The notes below the pieces were generated by a model, which was not told the DNA's origin, searched no databases, and saw only the letters and a list, made by a program, of their open reading frames with translations. The translations under genes were made by a program, and so were the position numbers. From Chthoniobacter flavus (GTDB lineage Bacteria; Verrucomicrobiota; Verrucomicrobiia; Chthoniobacterales; Chthoniobacteraceae), in the NCBI GenBank assembly GCA_945861435.1, contig CAMAUX010000015.1:1-64000 (forward strand): a DNA stretch of 64,000 nucleotides. The letters run 5' to 3'. This document shows positions 4,068 through 57,457 of this stretch, in pieces. Within the stretch, counting starts at the first letter, position 1. Every line of letters starts with the position of its first letter.

Positions 4068-4076
4068 GCCTGTCCC

Positions 4077-11351: not shown

Positions 11352-12698
11352 ATGCCGCACCTCACGCACCGCCTCCGCGCACTCCTCTGCCTGCTCCCCG
11401 CGCTCGTCCTGCTGCTCGCACCCACCAGTGCCCACGCATGGGGCCCCATGCATTCCGCCATCACCGAGGCCGCTTTCAATGCCCTTCCCCAATGGCAGCA
11501 ACATCTCCTCGCCGATCAGCGCTCCCAACTCATCGAGTTCGATTGCATGATCCCCGACCTCGTACGCGCACCCGCCCAGCGCAAAACCCTCGGCCGCTTC
11601 GCACTCCTGCCCAACGGCGATCCCTTCACGCACGAGCCTCACAGCAGGGCCCACAACGCCGCCCAGATGACCCACTACTTCCAGCAAGCCGTGGACCACG
11701 TCGCCAAGGGCGATCTCGCTGAAGCCTCCCGTTACGCCGGTTGCCTGCTCCATTTCTTGGAAGACTGCGGAAGCCCCGCTCATTCCATCCCCGGCGACAA
11801 CCAGCACGGCCTCATGCAGGACCTCCTCGAAGTGCCACCGGCTTTTAGGGACAGACCCCTCCACGGCCTCATCGAGGAAGGCTCCCTGCCCCTCTCCCTC
11901 GCTTCCTACCAACCCGTTCTTCTGGGCTCCACCACGAACGAAGCCGTCTTCCACCTCGTCGAACGCCTCAACGCCAGCATCCGCAACGCGCGCCACCAAC
12001 TCGTCCCCATCCTCCAAGGCGTCTTCCGCGGCGACCAACCCGCCGTCGACGCCGCCCGCCGCAACGCCGCCCTCATGGACGCACAGGTCGCAGCCGACGC
12101 CCTCCACACCATCCTCGCCATCGGTTCCAAACGCTTCGAACCCGCAGCCCTCCAATCCCTCGCACAAGTCGACCTCACACCCTTCACCCCGCTCGAAACA
12201 CTCGCCCAATCCTACCTCCCCCAATTCGCCTACTTCTCCAATCCCTACTTCGGATTCCCCGTGCGCAACGCCCTGCTCAAGGACGGCCGCGAACGACTCC
12301 CCCTTGTCCTCTCCCTTGCCAATGAAGGGACAGTCGCCACCCGCACCTTCCCCTCGGGCCTGAGCCTCGGCACCTCCTGCCGACTCTCCTACGCCCTGCC
12401 GGAAAAGGTCTACGACCGCTTCACCTGCCACCTCGGCCTCCACCCGGAACTCGGCCGCGAAGGCCGCGTCAACTTCCGCATTTCCGCCGACGGCGTCCCC
12501 GTTTTTGAAAGCGGCCCTCTTTCCGGCGCGGACCCCGCGCGCTCCGTCGACCTCCCGCTCTGGCGCGTGCAGGAACTCTCCATCGAAGTGCAGAGCGCAG
12601 GCACCGCACCCGCCGCGAGCAACTACGCCATCCTCGCAACACCGCTCCTGCACAAAGCGCAGGCCCCTCCCCGCCTCGACCAGGACAAAACCCGCTGA
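11352..12698 (+). CDS. Secreted zinc-dependent phospholipase C / S1-P1 nuclease-like protein
   Basis: AWGPMHSAITEAAF, AGCLLHFLEDCGSPAHSIPGDNQHG His-rich pattern; signal peptide. Confidence 0.65.
   Translation: MPHLTHRLRALLCLLPALVLLLAPTSAHAWGPMHSAITEAAFNALPQWQQHLLADQRSQLIEFDCMIPDLVRAPAQRKTLGRFALLPNGDPFTHEPHSRAHNAAQMTHYFQQAVDHVAKGDLAEASRYAGCLLHFLEDCGSPAHSIPGDNQHGLMQDLLEVPPAFRDRPLHGLIEEGSLPLSLASYQPVLLGSTTNEAVFHLVERLNASIRNARHQLVPILQGVFRGDQPAVDAARRNAALMDAQVAADALHTILAIGSKRFEPAALQSLAQVDLTPFTPLETLAQSYLPQFAYFSNPYFGFPVRNALLKDGRERLPLVLSLANEGTVATRTFPSGLSLGTSCRLSYALPEKVYDRFTCHLGLHPELGREGRVNFRISADGVPVFESGPLSGADPARSVDLPLWRVQELSIEVQSAGTAPAASNYAILATPLLHKAQAPPRLDQDKTR
11836..11873 (+). repeat. GGGACAGAC-containing 38-bp repeat, in-frame copy 1
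   Basis: CACCGGCTTTTAGGGACAGACCCCTCCACGGCCTCATC; copy 2 at 12719-12756 with 1 mismatch. Confidence 0.85.
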
Positions 12699-12907
12699 AC
12701 CATCCGCCAGCTCGTCAGCACCGGCTTTTAGGGACAGACCCCTTCACGGCCTCATCCTGACGCGTGCAGGAACTCTCCATCGAAGTGCAAAGCGCAGGCA
12801 CCGCACCCGCCGCGAGCAACTACGCCATCCTCGCGACACCGCTCCTATACAAGGCGCAGGCACCGCCCCGCCTCGACCAGGACAAAACTCGCTGAGCCAT
12901 CCGCCAG
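12564..12907 (+). repeat. Duplicated 147-bp gene 3' end: 12564-12710 and 12761-12907, with 38-bp repeat copy 2 (12719-12756) at the junction
   Basis: Ungapped alignment of the two 147-bp segments, about nine mismatches. Confidence 0.9.
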
Positions 12908-46038: not shown

Positions 46039-46153
46039 GAGGCACAAGTATCACAGGGCGCCACACGTCCCAGCCCGTCGCAAGGGATGGTTCGGATGGC
46101 ACTTAGATTGGAGGCTTCGCCGTGACTTTTGGTACCACGCCTGCGACCAGTGA

Positions 46154-46184
46154 AGCCGATAGAGACAGGCAAACTTCCTCGATG
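46154..46184 (+). repeat. 31-bp repeat R copy 1 (empty-site configuration)
   Basis: AGCCGATAGAGACAGGCAAACTTCCTCGATG, flanked GTGA...CTTTGTTGGCTC. Confidence 0.9.
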
Positions 46185-46451
46185 CTTTGTTGGCTCTGAC
46201 CTTGCGCACCGCTTCCACGCTCTCCACGCGGTAGCCTTCGCTTTCATACAGGGGTCGGAGTTGGATTCGCATTCACTCCAATCCCCCAACGAAGGCTGCC
46301 GCCTCCATCTCTTTTCACTGCGAAGACGGTAAAGCGCCGGATTTCTTCCCGATAAATCTCTCCATAGAAACTGTAGAAGCGCCACTTCGGCTCCGCTTTT
46401 GCTTTCCGATAGAGCGCAATTTGAAGCTTTCGAATTTTACTCGGCGTTCCT
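46175..46451 (-). pseudogene. Degenerate group II intron reverse transcriptase/maturase, N-terminal fragments
   Basis: Minus: GTPSKIRKLQIALYRKAKAEPKWRFYSFYGEIYREE, then shifted frame VEAVRKVRANKAS; both resemble the N-terminus of group II RTs, with intervening insertion/frameshift. Confidence 0.7.
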
Positions 46452-46787
46452 ATCTCCGCTTGCGCGGAGCCATCGCCAGATCCTTCGCTTTGTCGCTAGA
46501 ATAAAAGCACTGCCGCTTCGCTCCTCGTGGGTTGTAGTGTCCCACAGATCAACGCTCCTACCAGCGGCTCCGACTTCTGCTCCGGCCCGTTCGCTCTCAC
46601 CTGCGTACAGGCTTGAAACGGCGGTTGAGGCATCTGCCCCTATGCCCCCCGCCCGAGCAGATCTCCCGGATGATCTCGGTGCCATTTCCAACCATGCCGT
46701 CCACGAATACGCCGTCAGGGGTTGCGTCAGCCGGACAGTTGCTCTTGGGCTGACTTCGCTGGCGTTGATGCTTCGCTCCCTACGTGA

Positions 46788-46818
46788 AGCCGATAGGGAC
46801 AGGCAAACTTCCTCGATG
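46788..46818 (+). repeat. 31-bp repeat R copy 2
   Basis: AGCCGATAGGGACAGGCAAACTTCCTCGATG. Confidence 0.95.
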
Positions 46819-46889
46819 ACCCGCATGGAGATCCCCGCCAACGAGGTCGTCCCGCGCGGCGAATACATCCGGCTCATGGGCGACCTCAT
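46819..46889 (+). other. 71-bp captured fragment identical to 56903-56973 inside a DUF1552 CDS
   Basis: ACCCGCATGGAGATCCCCGCC...CTCATGGGCGACCTCAT, 71/71 by eye, exactly bracketed by R copies 2 and 3. Confidence 0.95.
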
Positions 46890-46920
46890 AGCCGATAGGG
46901 ACAGGCAAACTTCCTCGATG
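46890..46920 (+). repeat. 31-bp repeat R copy 3
   Basis: AGCCGATAGGGACAGGCAAACTTCCTCGATG followed by CTTTGTTGGCTC. Confidence 0.95.
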
Positions 46921-47332
46921 CTTTGTTGGCTCACCGACAGGCATCGGCTCGGCTGGCTCTGAGAGGAAGTTTTCGACGCTCATCTGTGGTTCATTTTCAT
47001 TACGGCCTGGCTGTCTTGGATCGGTTGCTCTCCACCCCGCCTCACGGCGACGCAGTTACCGACCCATCAGTGCCGCATACAGCCCACTCGGCAGACGGGA
47101 CTTTCACCCGCTTGAGCACCGCATTCACCGGCGCACGCCTGTCCCTATTGGCTCTATCCGCGACAATACCACCGCCCTCCCCCACCCCCATTCCCAGTCA
47201 GCCTTGAGCGCGACACCCACGAGGTCTTCTGCTACCAAACACCCGCGCATTCGCCCAAGGACTCCGTCCACAAATGCGCCTCGCACGAACCCGCAGCCCA
47301 CCCCTCAGCAACCTCCCCACCCCTCCACAACC

Positions 47333-50257: not shown

Positions 50258-50376
50258 CCGCCTGCAACGCCTGCAAGGGACACAACGCCTGCAAGGGACC
50301 AACGCCTGCAAGGGTCAGGCATAATCACGGTCAACGCCTGCAAGAACGCCTGCAAGGGACAGGCATAATCACGGTA
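50258..50376 (+). repeat. Array of full and truncated AACGCCTGCAAGGGACAGGCATAATCACGGT units (REP-like)
   Basis: Five units of differing length; GCCTG-CAAGGGA-CAGGC can form a hairpin. Confidence 0.85.
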
Positions 50377-50510
50377 GGACCGCACAGATCCCATCAATGG
50401 CCACCGAGTGGAGGGCATCGATCGTGCCTCCTTGAGGGAGCACCTCCTTTGGCTTGGCTGCGCGCTTGGCCACCCTGTTTGCGTCTGCCGCTGGAAGCGG
50501 CTTTAAGGGC

Positions 50511-50541
50511 GGCTTCAAGGGACAGGCAGTTTATTAAAGCT
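50511..50541 (+). repeat. 31-bp repeat R' copy 1
   Basis: GGCTTCAAGGGACAGGCAGTTTATTAAAGCT. Confidence 0.95.
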
Positions 50542-50744
50542 TCGAGGAGCGCCTGCGCGTCATGCGCGCGATCGGCAATCATGCTGAAGCCGAAAAATTG
50601 CGGGAACGGTTCCTGCGGAGGATGTGGAGTTTGAGTGCGTTCATGCAGGCGGTGAAGCAGCGCTTCAGCCTGTGGTTGAACACACGCGATGGGCGCGCCG
50701 GGACGCTCTGGGAGGGACGCTTCAAGAGCGTGCTCGTGGAGGGG
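50542..50744 (+). pseudogene. RAYT gene fragment 1 (203 bp, matches 51450-51652)
   Basis: LEERLRVMRAIGNHAEAEKLRERFLRRMWSLSAFMQAVKQRF... same sequence as the full-length RAYT, a few mismatches. Confidence 0.95.
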
Positions 50745-50745
50745 C

Positions 50746-50776
50746 GGCTTCAAGGGACAGGCAGTTTATCAAAGCT
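50746..50776 (+). repeat. 31-bp repeat R' copy 2
   Basis: GGCTTCAAGGGACAGGCAGTTTATCAAAGCT. Confidence 0.95.
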
Positions 50777-51075
50777 TCGAGGAGCGCCTGCGCGTCATGC
50801 GCGCGATCGGCAATCATGCTGGAGCCGAAAAATTGCGGGAACGGTTCCTGCGGAGGATGTGGAGTTTGAGTGCGTTCATGCAGGCGGTGAAGCAGCGCTT
50901 CAGCCAGTGGTTGAACACACGCGATGGGCGCGCCGGGACGCTCTGGGAGGGACGCTTCAAGAGCGTGCTCGTGGAGGGGACCGCGCGGACGCTTGCGACC
51001 ATGGCGGCCTATATTGATCTCAACCCGGTCCGCGCGGGGATCGTGGGCGAACCGGGCCTTTATCGATGAAGCGGG
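50777..51075 (+). pseudogene. RAYT gene fragment 2 (299 bp, matches 51450-51748)
   Basis: Same left breakpoint as fragment 1, longer right end (to ...EPGLYR). Confidence 0.95.
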
Positions 51076-51079
51076 AAGC

Positions 51080-51110
51080 GGCTTCAAGGGACAGGCAGTT
51101 TATCAAAAGC
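51080..51110 (+). repeat. 31-bp repeat R' copy 3
   Basis: GGCTTCAAGGGACAGGCAGTTTATCAAAAGC. Confidence 0.93.
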
Positions 51111-51151: not shown

Positions 51152-52324
51152 ATGAGGTCGAGGAGGGTGCTGGCTGAGGAGGGATCTCCGGGGGCGTGTT
51201 ACCACTGCGTCACGAGGGTGGTGGACCGGCGCTTTGCGCTGGGCGGTCCGGAGAAGGAGAAGTTCGTAAAAATCCTGCGGGCGTACGAGGAGTTCTGCGG
51301 GGTGGAGGTGCTCACCTACTGCGTGATGAGCAACCACGTCCATGTACTCGTCCACGTGCCGCCAAGGCCCGCGCCGGACTCCCTGCCCGACGATGCAGCA
51401 CTCGTGCGCCTGGTGCGTCGCGCGGACCTGTGCTTTCCCGCGGACGAACTCGAGGAGCGCCTGCGCGTCATGCGCGCGATCGGCAATCATGCTGGAGCCG
51501 AAAAATTGCGGGAACGGTTCCTGCGAAGGATGTGGAGCTTGAGTGCGTTCATGCAGGCGGTGAAGCAGCGCTTCAGCCAGTGGTTGAACACACGCGATGG
51601 GCGCGCCGGGACGCTCTGGGAGGGACGCTTCAAGAGCGTGCTCGTGGAGGGGACCGGGCGGACGCTTGCGACCATGGCTGCCTATATTGATCTCAACCCG
51701 GTCCGCGCGGGGATCGTGGGCGAACCGGGCCTTTACCGATGGAGCGGGTACGGCGAGGCGATGGCAGGCCGGCAACTGGCGCGTCGCAGACTCCGGCGCG
51801 TGGTGCTCGGAGTGCTGGTGGACGATCTGATCGCCCAATCAGCCCAATCAGCCCAATCAGCCCAATCAGCCCAATCAGCCCAATCAGCCATAGGCCAAGT
51901 TCCCACGCGCGCTCACAGGAAGAGTCGCGGTAATTGCGACGACCGTGAGAGTCGCAAAGAGACGCGCCGGTTGTTGTCCGCGTACCGGATGTACGTTTTC
52001 GAGAACGGGATCGAACGGACTGCGGAACTCTGCGAGCGTCGAGACCGACGGGGAATGACTGCACGGGAGGTGGAGGCGGTGATCCAGGCAGGTGGACGGT
52101 TGCGCTTCTTTGAGGCGATGCGGTGTCGTGTGCGGTATTTCACGGACGGTTGCGTTCTGGGTTGCCGGTCATTTGTCGAAGGGTTCTTCGGAAGAAACCG
52201 GGACAGGTTTGGGGGTCGCCGGGAGAGCGGTGCAAGGGAACTGCGCCGAGTGGAAATGCCGTGGCTTTTCACAGTCCGAGATCTACGCCGCGCGCCAATC
52301 CAACGGAGTGCCGCCGTGGCGTGA
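51152..52324 (+). CDS. REP-associated tyrosine transposase (RAYT, Y1_Tnp/IS200-like HUH)
   Basis: YHCVTRVVDRRFALG, VLTYCVMSNHVHVLVHVP (HUH), TLWEGRFKSVLVE, AAYIDLNPVRAGIV; C-terminal extension after QSA repeat. Confidence 0.93.
   Translation: MRSRRVLAEEGSPGACYHCVTRVVDRRFALGGPEKEKFVKILRAYEEFCGVEVLTYCVMSNHVHVLVHVPPRPAPDSLPDDAALVRLVRRADLCFPADELEERLRVMRAIGNHAGAEKLRERFLRRMWSLSAFMQAVKQRFSQWLNTRDGRAGTLWEGRFKSVLVEGTGRTLATMAAYIDLNPVRAGIVGEPGLYRWSGYGEAMAGRQLARRRLRRVVLGVLVDDLIAQSAQSAQSAQSAQSAQSAIGQVPTRAHRKSRGNCDDRESRKETRRLLSAYRMYVFENGIERTAELCERRDRRGMTAREVEAVIQAGGRLRFFEAMRCRVRYFTDGCVLGCRSFVEGFFGRNRDRFGGRRESGARELRRVEMPWLFTVRDLRRAPIQRSAAVA
51834..51887 (+). repeat. 9-bp tandem repeat CCCAATCAG x6, in frame in RAYT (QSA repeats)
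   Basis: Direct reading. Confidence 0.97.
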
Positions 52325-55324: not shown

Positions 55325-56098
55325 GGGGGCCTCTCATACATTCCGCCAAACTCCATTCCCTTAGCCCCAATGGCCCCAACCAACCTCCTGTACCGAACAG
55401 CACTTATTGAGCCTCTCACATCACACTGACACCCGAAGAGGGCTCAGCCAATGAGCGTGGCGTTAATCCCTGCTCCGCGAGTCTCGATGGATATTAATCC
55501 GGGCATTCAATACCCGCGGTCATTATGAGGCGCATCCACAGTCCCGATGCCTGGCGAGAGAGAGATGAAGCGGATGCGTACTGCCCAAGCGCCACCCATT
55601 CGACCCGCTCGGCCTCTGGTGTTTCATGGCCGGATTAATAAGGCCATCGGCCATGCCTCGATGGGGTAAAATCGACCACGAATCAGGCGCTCTCACTGCC
55701 AGCATACAGGAGGCACGGCGGGGTTCCTCCATTCGGAGTACCTGCTTCTGGATCGCCCTCCCTCATCAAGCCACGACCGATGCCTTTAAATCAGTGCCTT
55801 TCGGGACGGGTTGTTTCCAAAATCCCTCCCCCAGCACGGATCCGCGGGAGCATCCCCGCATCCCACATCGCCTGGAGCCAGCGTTGCACCCCACGCAGCC
55901 TCTGGCGGCGCTCTTCAGCGGAACGTTGCCGATCCGAATCAGCGGCCAGGGCGGTTTAGCTCACGTACTCCAGCCTGTCCTTACAAGCAGACCCGCTGTA
56001 ATAGCAGGTTTCCCACCGCCCGCATTGCGCTTGCTTCCCCCCTCACCCGCTCTCCGGCTATCATTCCCTTTCGTCCGCCGCACCTCGGCGCCACCCCC

Positions 56099-57457
56099 AT
56101 GCTTTACAACCGACGCAATTTCCTGCGCTCAGGCGGCGCTTTTCTCGCGCTCCCCTTCCTCCACTCCCTCCAGGCACGCGCCGCGACAAAGCCTCCTGCG
56201 CCAAGCAAGAAGCTGGTCCTGATGTACGTGCCAAACGGCCTCGTCCGCCGCTGCTTCTTTCCCGGTGAGGAGAATGGGGAGTCCCCCGGTTTTGTCGGCG
56301 GCTTCAATGCCGACAAACTCAAGGACGCGATGCGCAACAAGAGGCCGCCTGGCATTTATCCCCTTGAGCTCACCTCCACTCTGCGCCCCCTCGCAGAGCA
56401 CGCGAAGGATGTGACCCTCGTCACCGGCCTCGACCGCTCCTACAAAAACGGTCAGGACGTCCATGCCCAAGGCGCCTCCTGCTATCTCACCAGCGTCTCT
56501 CCGGAACAGGCTTCCGTACGCGGACTGCGCTACCCGCAGGGTCGCTCGCTCGACCAAGTGATCGCCGACAAGGTGGGCCCCGGCACCGCGTTCCGTTCTT
56601 TGGAAATCTCCTGCAACGGTTTCAAGGGCGACAAGGAGGACATGTACTTCGACAACATCTCATGGTACGGAACCGACAAGAAGGCGCCTTCCATCCGCGA
56701 CCCTCGCAAGCTCTACGAGCGCCTGTTCATGGCCGACGGCCAGCGCCAGCACCTGCGCAACGTCACCGACCTTGTCATGGCCGATGCGCGCGATCTCCAA
56801 CTGCGCATCAACCACGAGGACCGCGAGACCGTCTCGGAATTCATGGAGATGATCCGCGCCATCGAGGTGCGCATGCAGCGCATGGAATCCATCGTCTCCA
56901 CCACCCGCATGGAGATCCCCGCCAACGAGGTCGTCCCGCGCGGCGAATACATCCGGCTCATGGGCGACCTCATGATCCTTGCCCTCCAGATGGGCCTCAC
57001 CAACGTGTGCACTTTCATGGTCGGCCCCGAACGCTGGGACGCACCCATGCTCTACGAGGGCGTCTTCGGCCAACCCGTCCAACACCACGGCATGAGCCAC
57101 AACCAGAAGGGCGATGGATACAAGGAACTCCAGAAGATCGATCTCTTCCACGTGCAGCAGTACGCCTACCTCATCTCCCGCATGAAGAGCGTGCGCGAGG
57201 CCGACGGCTCCTCCCTTCTCGACAACTCCATTTTCACCTACGGCGCAGGCCTCGGTGATGGCGCCACCCATCAGTACTTCGATCTTCCCCTCGTTGTCGC
57301 AGGCACCTCGCAGAACGCGCTCAAACAGGGCCGCTCCATCCAGTGCAAGCCGGGCACGCTCAACTCCAACATGTGGCTCACCATCGCCAACCTCATGGGC
57401 CTCGAACTCCCTTCCTACGCGGACAGCGACGGCACCATCTCCCAACTCTGGACCTGA
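56099..57457 (+). CDS. DUF1552 domain protein
   Basis: YNRRNFLRSGGAFLALPFLHSLQARA, KKLVLMYVPNGLVRRCFFP, donor-identical 71-bp segment at 56903-56973. Confidence 0.93.
   Translation: MLYNRRNFLRSGGAFLALPFLHSLQARAATKPPAPSKKLVLMYVPNGLVRRCFFPGEENGESPGFVGGFNADKLKDAMRNKRPPGIYPLELTSTLRPLAEHAKDVTLVTGLDRSYKNGQDVHAQGASCYLTSVSPEQASVRGLRYPQGRSLDQVIADKVGPGTAFRSLEISCNGFKGDKEDMYFDNISWYGTDKKAPSIRDPRKLYERLFMADGQRQHLRNVTDLVMADARDLQLRINHEDRETVSEFMEMIRAIEVRMQRMESIVSTTRMEIPANEVVPRGEYIRLMGDLMILALQMGLTNVCTFMVGPERWDAPMLYEGVFGQPVQHHGMSHNQKGDGYKELQKIDLFHVQQYAYLISRMKSVREADGSSLLDNSIFTYGAGLGDGATHQYFDLPLVVAGTSQNALKQGRSIQCKPGTLNSNMWLTIANLMGLELPSYADSDGTISQLWT

Follow-up and report, generated by a model that had tools for sequence, protein, structure and literature searches.

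Duplication of a RAYT-linked repeat, with gene fragments between its copies, in a Chthoniobacter flavus genome

REP/BIME-RAYT systems (REPtrons; TnpAREP of E. coli, Stenotrophomonas and Marinomonas) pair a short, high-copy intergenic element with a gene for a Y1/HUH protein carrying HxH and Tyr motifs. REP copies are often grouped and reiterated head to tail together with flanking DNA (PMC3733652; PMC8266576); TnpAREP proteins cleave at CT or CA dinucleotides, and REP dissemination has been called poorly understood (PMC8266576). The IS200/IS605 family makes no large target-site duplications (PMC2817692), Helitrons capture gene fragments (PMC4778049), and eukaryotic end joining at paired nicks or staggered breaks is known to yield tandem duplications that contain templated fillers (PMC5730883).

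The system described here, built around a dispersed element that we call R, resembles REPtrons in pairing such an element with such a gene. Unlike the REPs bound by characterised TnpAREP, R is non-palindromic and mostly lacks the GTAG tag; and, unlike in REP/BIME-RAYT, groups of R arise by duplication of one local copy, with fillers that include gene fragments. Helitrons use an HUH enzyme, and Pack-MULEs, like them, copy host gene fragments into transposase-linked sequence. Units of the form R-filler-R resemble both in this respect, but the captured piece has no transposon ends and nothing indicates further movement of the filled unit. With IS200/IS605 the system shares a linked protein with a Y1_Tnp (PF01797) HUH domain, whereas R-filler-R lacks IS ends. 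As in eukaryotic staggered-break duplications, direct repeats of what would be the cut segment are found with or without fillers copied in cis; in contrast to those, the duplications of R are natural, bacterial and recurrent at one transposase-linked element.

The genome is a 5.35-Mb draft in 105 contigs, probably metagenome-assembled, and the window, meaning the whole 64-kb stretch of DNA that was analysed, is part of its contig 15 (C15). About 2.37 Mb of the 5.35 Mb were examined for donors and arrays, which makes the donor and capture counts lower bounds. In the window, two identical 31-bp copies of R (AGCCGATAGGGACAGGCAAACTTCCTCGATG) at 46788–46818 and 46890–46920 enclose a 71-bp coding fragment in sense orientation at 46819–46889 (all + strand). 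The fragment is identical at 71/71 positions to 56903–56973 (+), in the interior of an ORF at 55811–57457 that matches DUF1552 (PF07586, E=6e-66), about 10 kb from the R-71 bp-R unit. Blunt joins bound the insert at both ends, with microhomology of 0 bp; the base that follows R is not shared, nor is the one that precedes the donor fragment. No R lies beside the donor fragment, and no third copy of the 71 bp was found in the ~2.37 Mb examined. A third R, at 46154–46184, carries one mismatch (GAGACAGGC); the number of R copies expected in the window by chance, with up to three mismatches allowed, is zero. Sequence comparison thus confirmed the layout, the exact R pair, the identity of the insert to the DUF1552 interior and the third R, all as given in a preliminary description of the locus. 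The same description had held that the structure resembles neither the insertion of an IS nor a simple tandem duplication; this view gained support: an IS with a target-site duplication was considered, but neither termini of its own nor a transposase gene could be found in the insert, which is 71 bp of gene interior.

The filled site interrupts a probable group II intron fragment (46499–47136, − strand; Rfam RF02003, E=0.027, below gathering). The fragment begins with GTGCGCC at 47136, directly after GGGACAGGC at 47145–47137, and carries a GUGAAAGUCCCG motif as well as GCCTGTC, which is complementary to GACAGGC of the R core and is a candidate EBS1. Three intron paralogues, on C23, C64 and C65, align on both sides of the filled site and have 32 bp of native intron there, with no R. 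In the window, these 32 bp are replaced by a 143-bp patch, TGA-R-71 bp-R-CTTTGTT (46785–46927, +), whose right join has 5 bp (GGCTC) common to patch and intron.

Apart from the 71 bp, the whole patch is contained in a 47-bp stretch ~600 bp away, GTGA-R-CTTTGTTGGCTC at 46150–46196 (+), with its one mismatch in R. The preliminary description had taken the R at 46154 for an empty version of the filled site; its outer flanks, GTGA and CTTTGTTGGCTC, are indeed as described, but the match stops there, and the true paralogues of the filled locus carry native intron sequence without R, which rules out 46154 as an unfilled allele. More likely, 46150–46196 is the probable template of the R-bearing patch. 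On the simplest reading, one or two copying rounds would have drawn on two templates to insert sequence in the intron fragment, R being supplied by 46150–46196; a later G-to-A change in the R at 46154 is compatible with this presumed direction of copying. A search of same-genus genomes for orthologous empty sites gave none usable, the intergenic DNA being too divergent and mainly coding regions aligning.

To the left of the R at 46154, the stretch 46098–46145 resembles a dispersed repeat (AAGAATGGCACTTAG...CACCGTGG...) that directly follows R at C6:100009 and C9:50680. Intron 5' ends (GTGCGCC or close variants) lie directly after GGGACAGGC not only at 47137–47145 (−) but also at C15:108936, C23:39420 and window positions 4076 and 161, and, given these positions and the GCCTGTC that the intron carries, the group II intron family seems to use the RAYT-linked core as an insertion target. 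A full group II intron with an RT/maturase (TIGR04416; Rfam RF02005, RF00029) is present on C43 (L189:22-1848 and 56-1970), with a different target, TTTTTAG/GTGTGCG.

R is abundant well beyond the window. With up to one mismatch allowed, the 5.35-Mb genome contains 166 occurrences of GATAGGGACAGGC and four of the reversed pattern. The consensus of 122 non-redundant sites from the first 1.98 Mb is (G)AGCCGATA-GGGACAGGC-AAWATYTCC, with conservation from about −9 to +21. The preliminary description had staked its reading beforehand on R being repeated elsewhere; the survey found R 166 times, with many R-insert-R intervals, and the filled site is not the sole case. Like REPs, R is a high-copy, short intergenic repeat that flanks a RAYT gene. 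A hairpin or REP palindrome was rejected for R: the search for a stem-loop gave no covarying flanking pair (best z 2.6 among 300 position pairs). The GTAG (or CGTC) tag of REPs is likewise not characteristic of R, whose pre-core consensus is GATA or GCAA, with GTAG in a minority of copies. None of 37 relatives contains GATAGGGACAGGC, so this variant of R was found only in the present genome, while the core is shared. Scanning the genome contigs for GATAGGGACAGGCAAWWTYTC gave no occurrence, and the top-ranked papers in a literature search on GGGACAGGC concern unrelated matters.

Duplication of R is local and concentrated at the core. Head-to-tail R pairs 0–600 bp apart occur often; the variant of R that is repeated is specific to the array, as local re-copying predicts, and the duplicated unit comprises 20–45 bp around the core. 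In an unbiased self-comparison, isolated two-copy duplications of 45–450 bp lay at the core in 20 of 27 cases against 6.5% expected (binomial P=1e-18), a few of the 27 being listed twice, in both directions (e.g. C6/C80, C18/C23), which makes the number of independent cases slightly smaller. Short tandem duplications lie next to 47/309 cores, compared with 8/1031 sites of five control motifs (Fisher 1e-23). Some have no filler (39 bp x2 on C23 and C100), some have a filler of 3–4 bp (28 bp x2 on C64 and C80), and fillers of 3–13 bp occur on C64, C80, C23 and in the window at 50301–50375 (+), where a 31-bp R variant is present twice around a 13-bp filler that repeats the left half of R. On their right side, 8–20 bp past the core, full R duplications end at neither a common sequence nor a fixed base, and many half-R duplications in this genome end at the first or second G and not at GGGAC. 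The arrays do not have the make-up of a CRISPR array: inserts span 0–600 bp and are self-derived where a source was found, and R differs between arrays. The window also holds two 38-bp core-bearing copies (CACCGGCTTTTAGGGACAGACCCC...) within or beside long ORFs, at 11836–11873 and 12719–12756, the latter flanked by a 151-bp duplication (12560–12710 and 12757–12907; 93%).

Besides the DUF1552 fragment, two further coding captures were identified. One, of 299 bp, comes from about codons 100–200 of a RAYT-like gene and lies between R copies directly upstream of that gene; the other, on C23, comprises 305 bp of a CapD/PseB-like polysaccharide-synthesis gene (98%) between 34-bp R copies, with its donor 2.3 kb away. 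Both have diverged from their donors by six substitutions each (98%). All three coding inserts run in the sense direction with respect to R, and their donors are on the same contig, within 10 kb. A non-coding donor, of 92 bp at 99%, was found on C13. For five other R-flanked inserts (C55:253-295, C40:883-941, C82:307-397, C23:39885-39997 and C52:2889-3017), whole-genome search gave no donor. A match between C55 and C96 was rejected as a capture, being a transposase-like gene at a contig end. On C27 (L041:7083-8047, −), the inserts of a five-R array look like mosaics of dispersed repeats and possible gene fragments, and the array starts with numerous duplications of R's left half. On C75 (L050:10457-11147), 312 bp that look like the 3' part of a gene recur at 98% between R copies immediately downstream of the original.

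The RAYT-like gene of the window (51152–52324, +; 390 aa) encodes a Y1/HUH transposase with intact HxH and Tyr motifs and is a candidate nickase for R. Its product (51152–52321) matches Y1_Tnp (PF01797, E=7e-14); H62, H64 and Y178 are invariant in 13 homologues, and Y178 is presumably the catalytic Tyr. Against the curated RAYT model NF047646 the protein scores 55.6 bits (E=5e-15), below the 80-bit cut-off, and for this reason we call it RAYT-like, a divergent relative of RAYT. Upstream of the gene lies an array (all + strand) that begins with an R variant at 50509–50538, followed by a shorter copy, ~202 bp, of the RAYT fragment (50542–50743), a second R variant (50744–50773), the 299-bp fragment itself (50777–51075, 98% identical to 51450–51748) and a third R variant directly upstream of the gene (51078–51107, GCGGCTTCAAGGGACAGGCAGTTTATCAAA); R plus fragment is thus tandemly duplicated. 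Inside the RAYT coding frame, at 51833–51895, there is a nine-base tandem repeat (GCCCAATCA, about 6–7 copies), which at such length is absent from the other four RAYT copies of the genome.

The association of R with RAYT genes extends across the genome and the phylum. Five close copies of the Y1/HUH transposase are present in the genome; R is directly upstream on C15, C20 and C86, and the copy on C78 has a degenerate R upstream and an intact R further up. Across Verrucomicrobiota the core is found 40–80 bp upstream of many RAYT genes, that of the window included. Among 71 RAYT loci in named genomes, almost all from Verrucomicrobiota, the 250 bp before the RAYT start contain exact GGGACAG in 23, usually between −42 and −78; its reverse complement is found at −52 to −57 in four further loci. 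RAYT upstream regions contain a short tandem duplication in 18 of 65 cases, against 12 of 409 control windows (P=8e-10). Many of these duplications end at GGGAC/A or GGGACA/G, in both orientations (L231, L240, L251, L252, L256, L261, L293), and this recurrence in several lineages suggests a fixed nick. The relatives G041 and G002 and the genome's own contigs C20 and C86 also have the arrangement R-[RAYT fragment]-R ahead of RAYT. Among 57 relatives, core enrichment tracks the presence of RAYT (P=0.0007, a statistic that ignores phylogenetic non-independence), with the exceptions of G021, G045 and G047, which bear RAYT and show no core enrichment, and of G048, which is enriched and RAYT-negative.

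What was observed directly is that copies are templated and exact, that each array duplicates its own R, that short duplications concentrate at the core and that the link to RAYT holds across genomes. We read this, with a probability of roughly 0.55, as follows: R is the cognate site of a Verrucomicrobiota RAYT (Y1/HUH) clade, and a nick followed by template-switching repair duplicates R and captures filler. We infer the RAYT as the nicking enzyme, the strand cut, the polymerase steps and the order of the template switches. A cut or nick would fall in or beside GGGACAG, most likely at GGGAC/A or GGGACA/G; the R core contains CA, one of the two dinucleotides at which TnpAREP proteins cut. The freed 3' end would prime repair synthesis, slip back upstream and re-copy the site, giving a short tandem duplication; alternatively, a stretch of another template would be copied first, and a return would leave R-filler-R. 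At 46785–46927, R would have been copied from ~600 bp away, the 71 bp from the DUF1552 gene 10 kb away and then R again, before the intron fragment was rejoined. A single fixed nick does not explain full R duplications, because their right edge has no shared sequence; these would call for resection of variable extent or for a further break in the opposite strand. The proposal in the preliminary description of a templated capture focused on the GGGACAGGC core is supported by these data. Of its further suggestion of an RT/REP link, the connection to a REP-type (RAYT) transposase stood, but nothing ties the genome's RT genes to duplication of R, and an RT role finds no support, since the junctions and the same-contig donors ~0.4–10 kb away need only DNA template switching.

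Ordinary replication slippage or template switching could act at R as a fragile or protein-bound repeat, a roadblock or simply a repeat-rich intergenic site, with the RAYT non-catalytic. The blunt or short-microhomology junctions and nearby donors fit such generic switching, as do full R duplications without a fixed base at the right edge; we nevertheless find this rather unlikely, given that R has no conserved secondary structure, that breakpoints in other lineages fall within 1–2 nt at GGGAC/A/G and that core abundance follows RAYT presence. Improbable, too, is a scheme in which an RT, that of a group II intron or some other, uses R as its priming site to copy pieces of mRNA, the core being also the exon-binding target of the intron. 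Intron 5' ends directly after GGGACAGGC at several loci, GCCTGTC in the intron, a group II RT on C43 (TIGR04416) and the shared sense orientation of the coding inserts speak for it, but the C43 intron occupies a different site, non-coding donors (C13) are used too, filler-free short duplications require no RNA, and the coding donors all lie on the same contig at ≤10 kb.

Since exactly [71 bp + R] separates the filled site from a simple R, one might think of a mobile unit of fragment plus R that inserts site-specifically into a resident R in the manner of an integron cassette. Such mobility, or an integron attC array, was rejected as very improbable: both R copies agree with one another and with the local array instead of with a foreign R, the DUF1552 donor fragment has no adjoining R, and the 71 bp have no third copy in the 2.37 Mb examined. 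An assembly artefact or chimeric join might be suspected in a probably metagenome-assembled draft of 105 contigs where the 71 bp are 100% identical to their donor. We consider it extremely unlikely, as junctions with 0 bp of overlap with the donor offer no shared k-mer to cause a join, the remaining captures differ from their donors (98%, six substitutions each) and numerous independent assemblies show the same pattern.

RAYTs and REP arrays, including reiterated groups of REPs, are known; gene-fragment spacers between RAYT-linked repeats appear to be new, in that no precedent or description of them, or of such spacers between REPs, was found in the literature searched. How REP-type sequences multiply is unsettled, and this genome offers intermediates: duplications with and without filler, recognisable donors and patch-free paralogous loci. 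Tentatively, and at somewhat less than even odds, we propose the broader view that nicking of non-palindromic GGGACAG by a Verrucomicrobiota RAYT clade drives, through sequence-specific template switching, both site duplication and capture of host gene fragments between the copies, a form of bacterial gene-fragment shuffling and possibly the route by which the element spreads. If RAYT nicking is the trigger, a transposase clade would be tied to a source of mutation in bacteria that creates intergenic arrays and copies of gene pieces, and the process at R sites may be a bacterial route for shuffling gene fragments.
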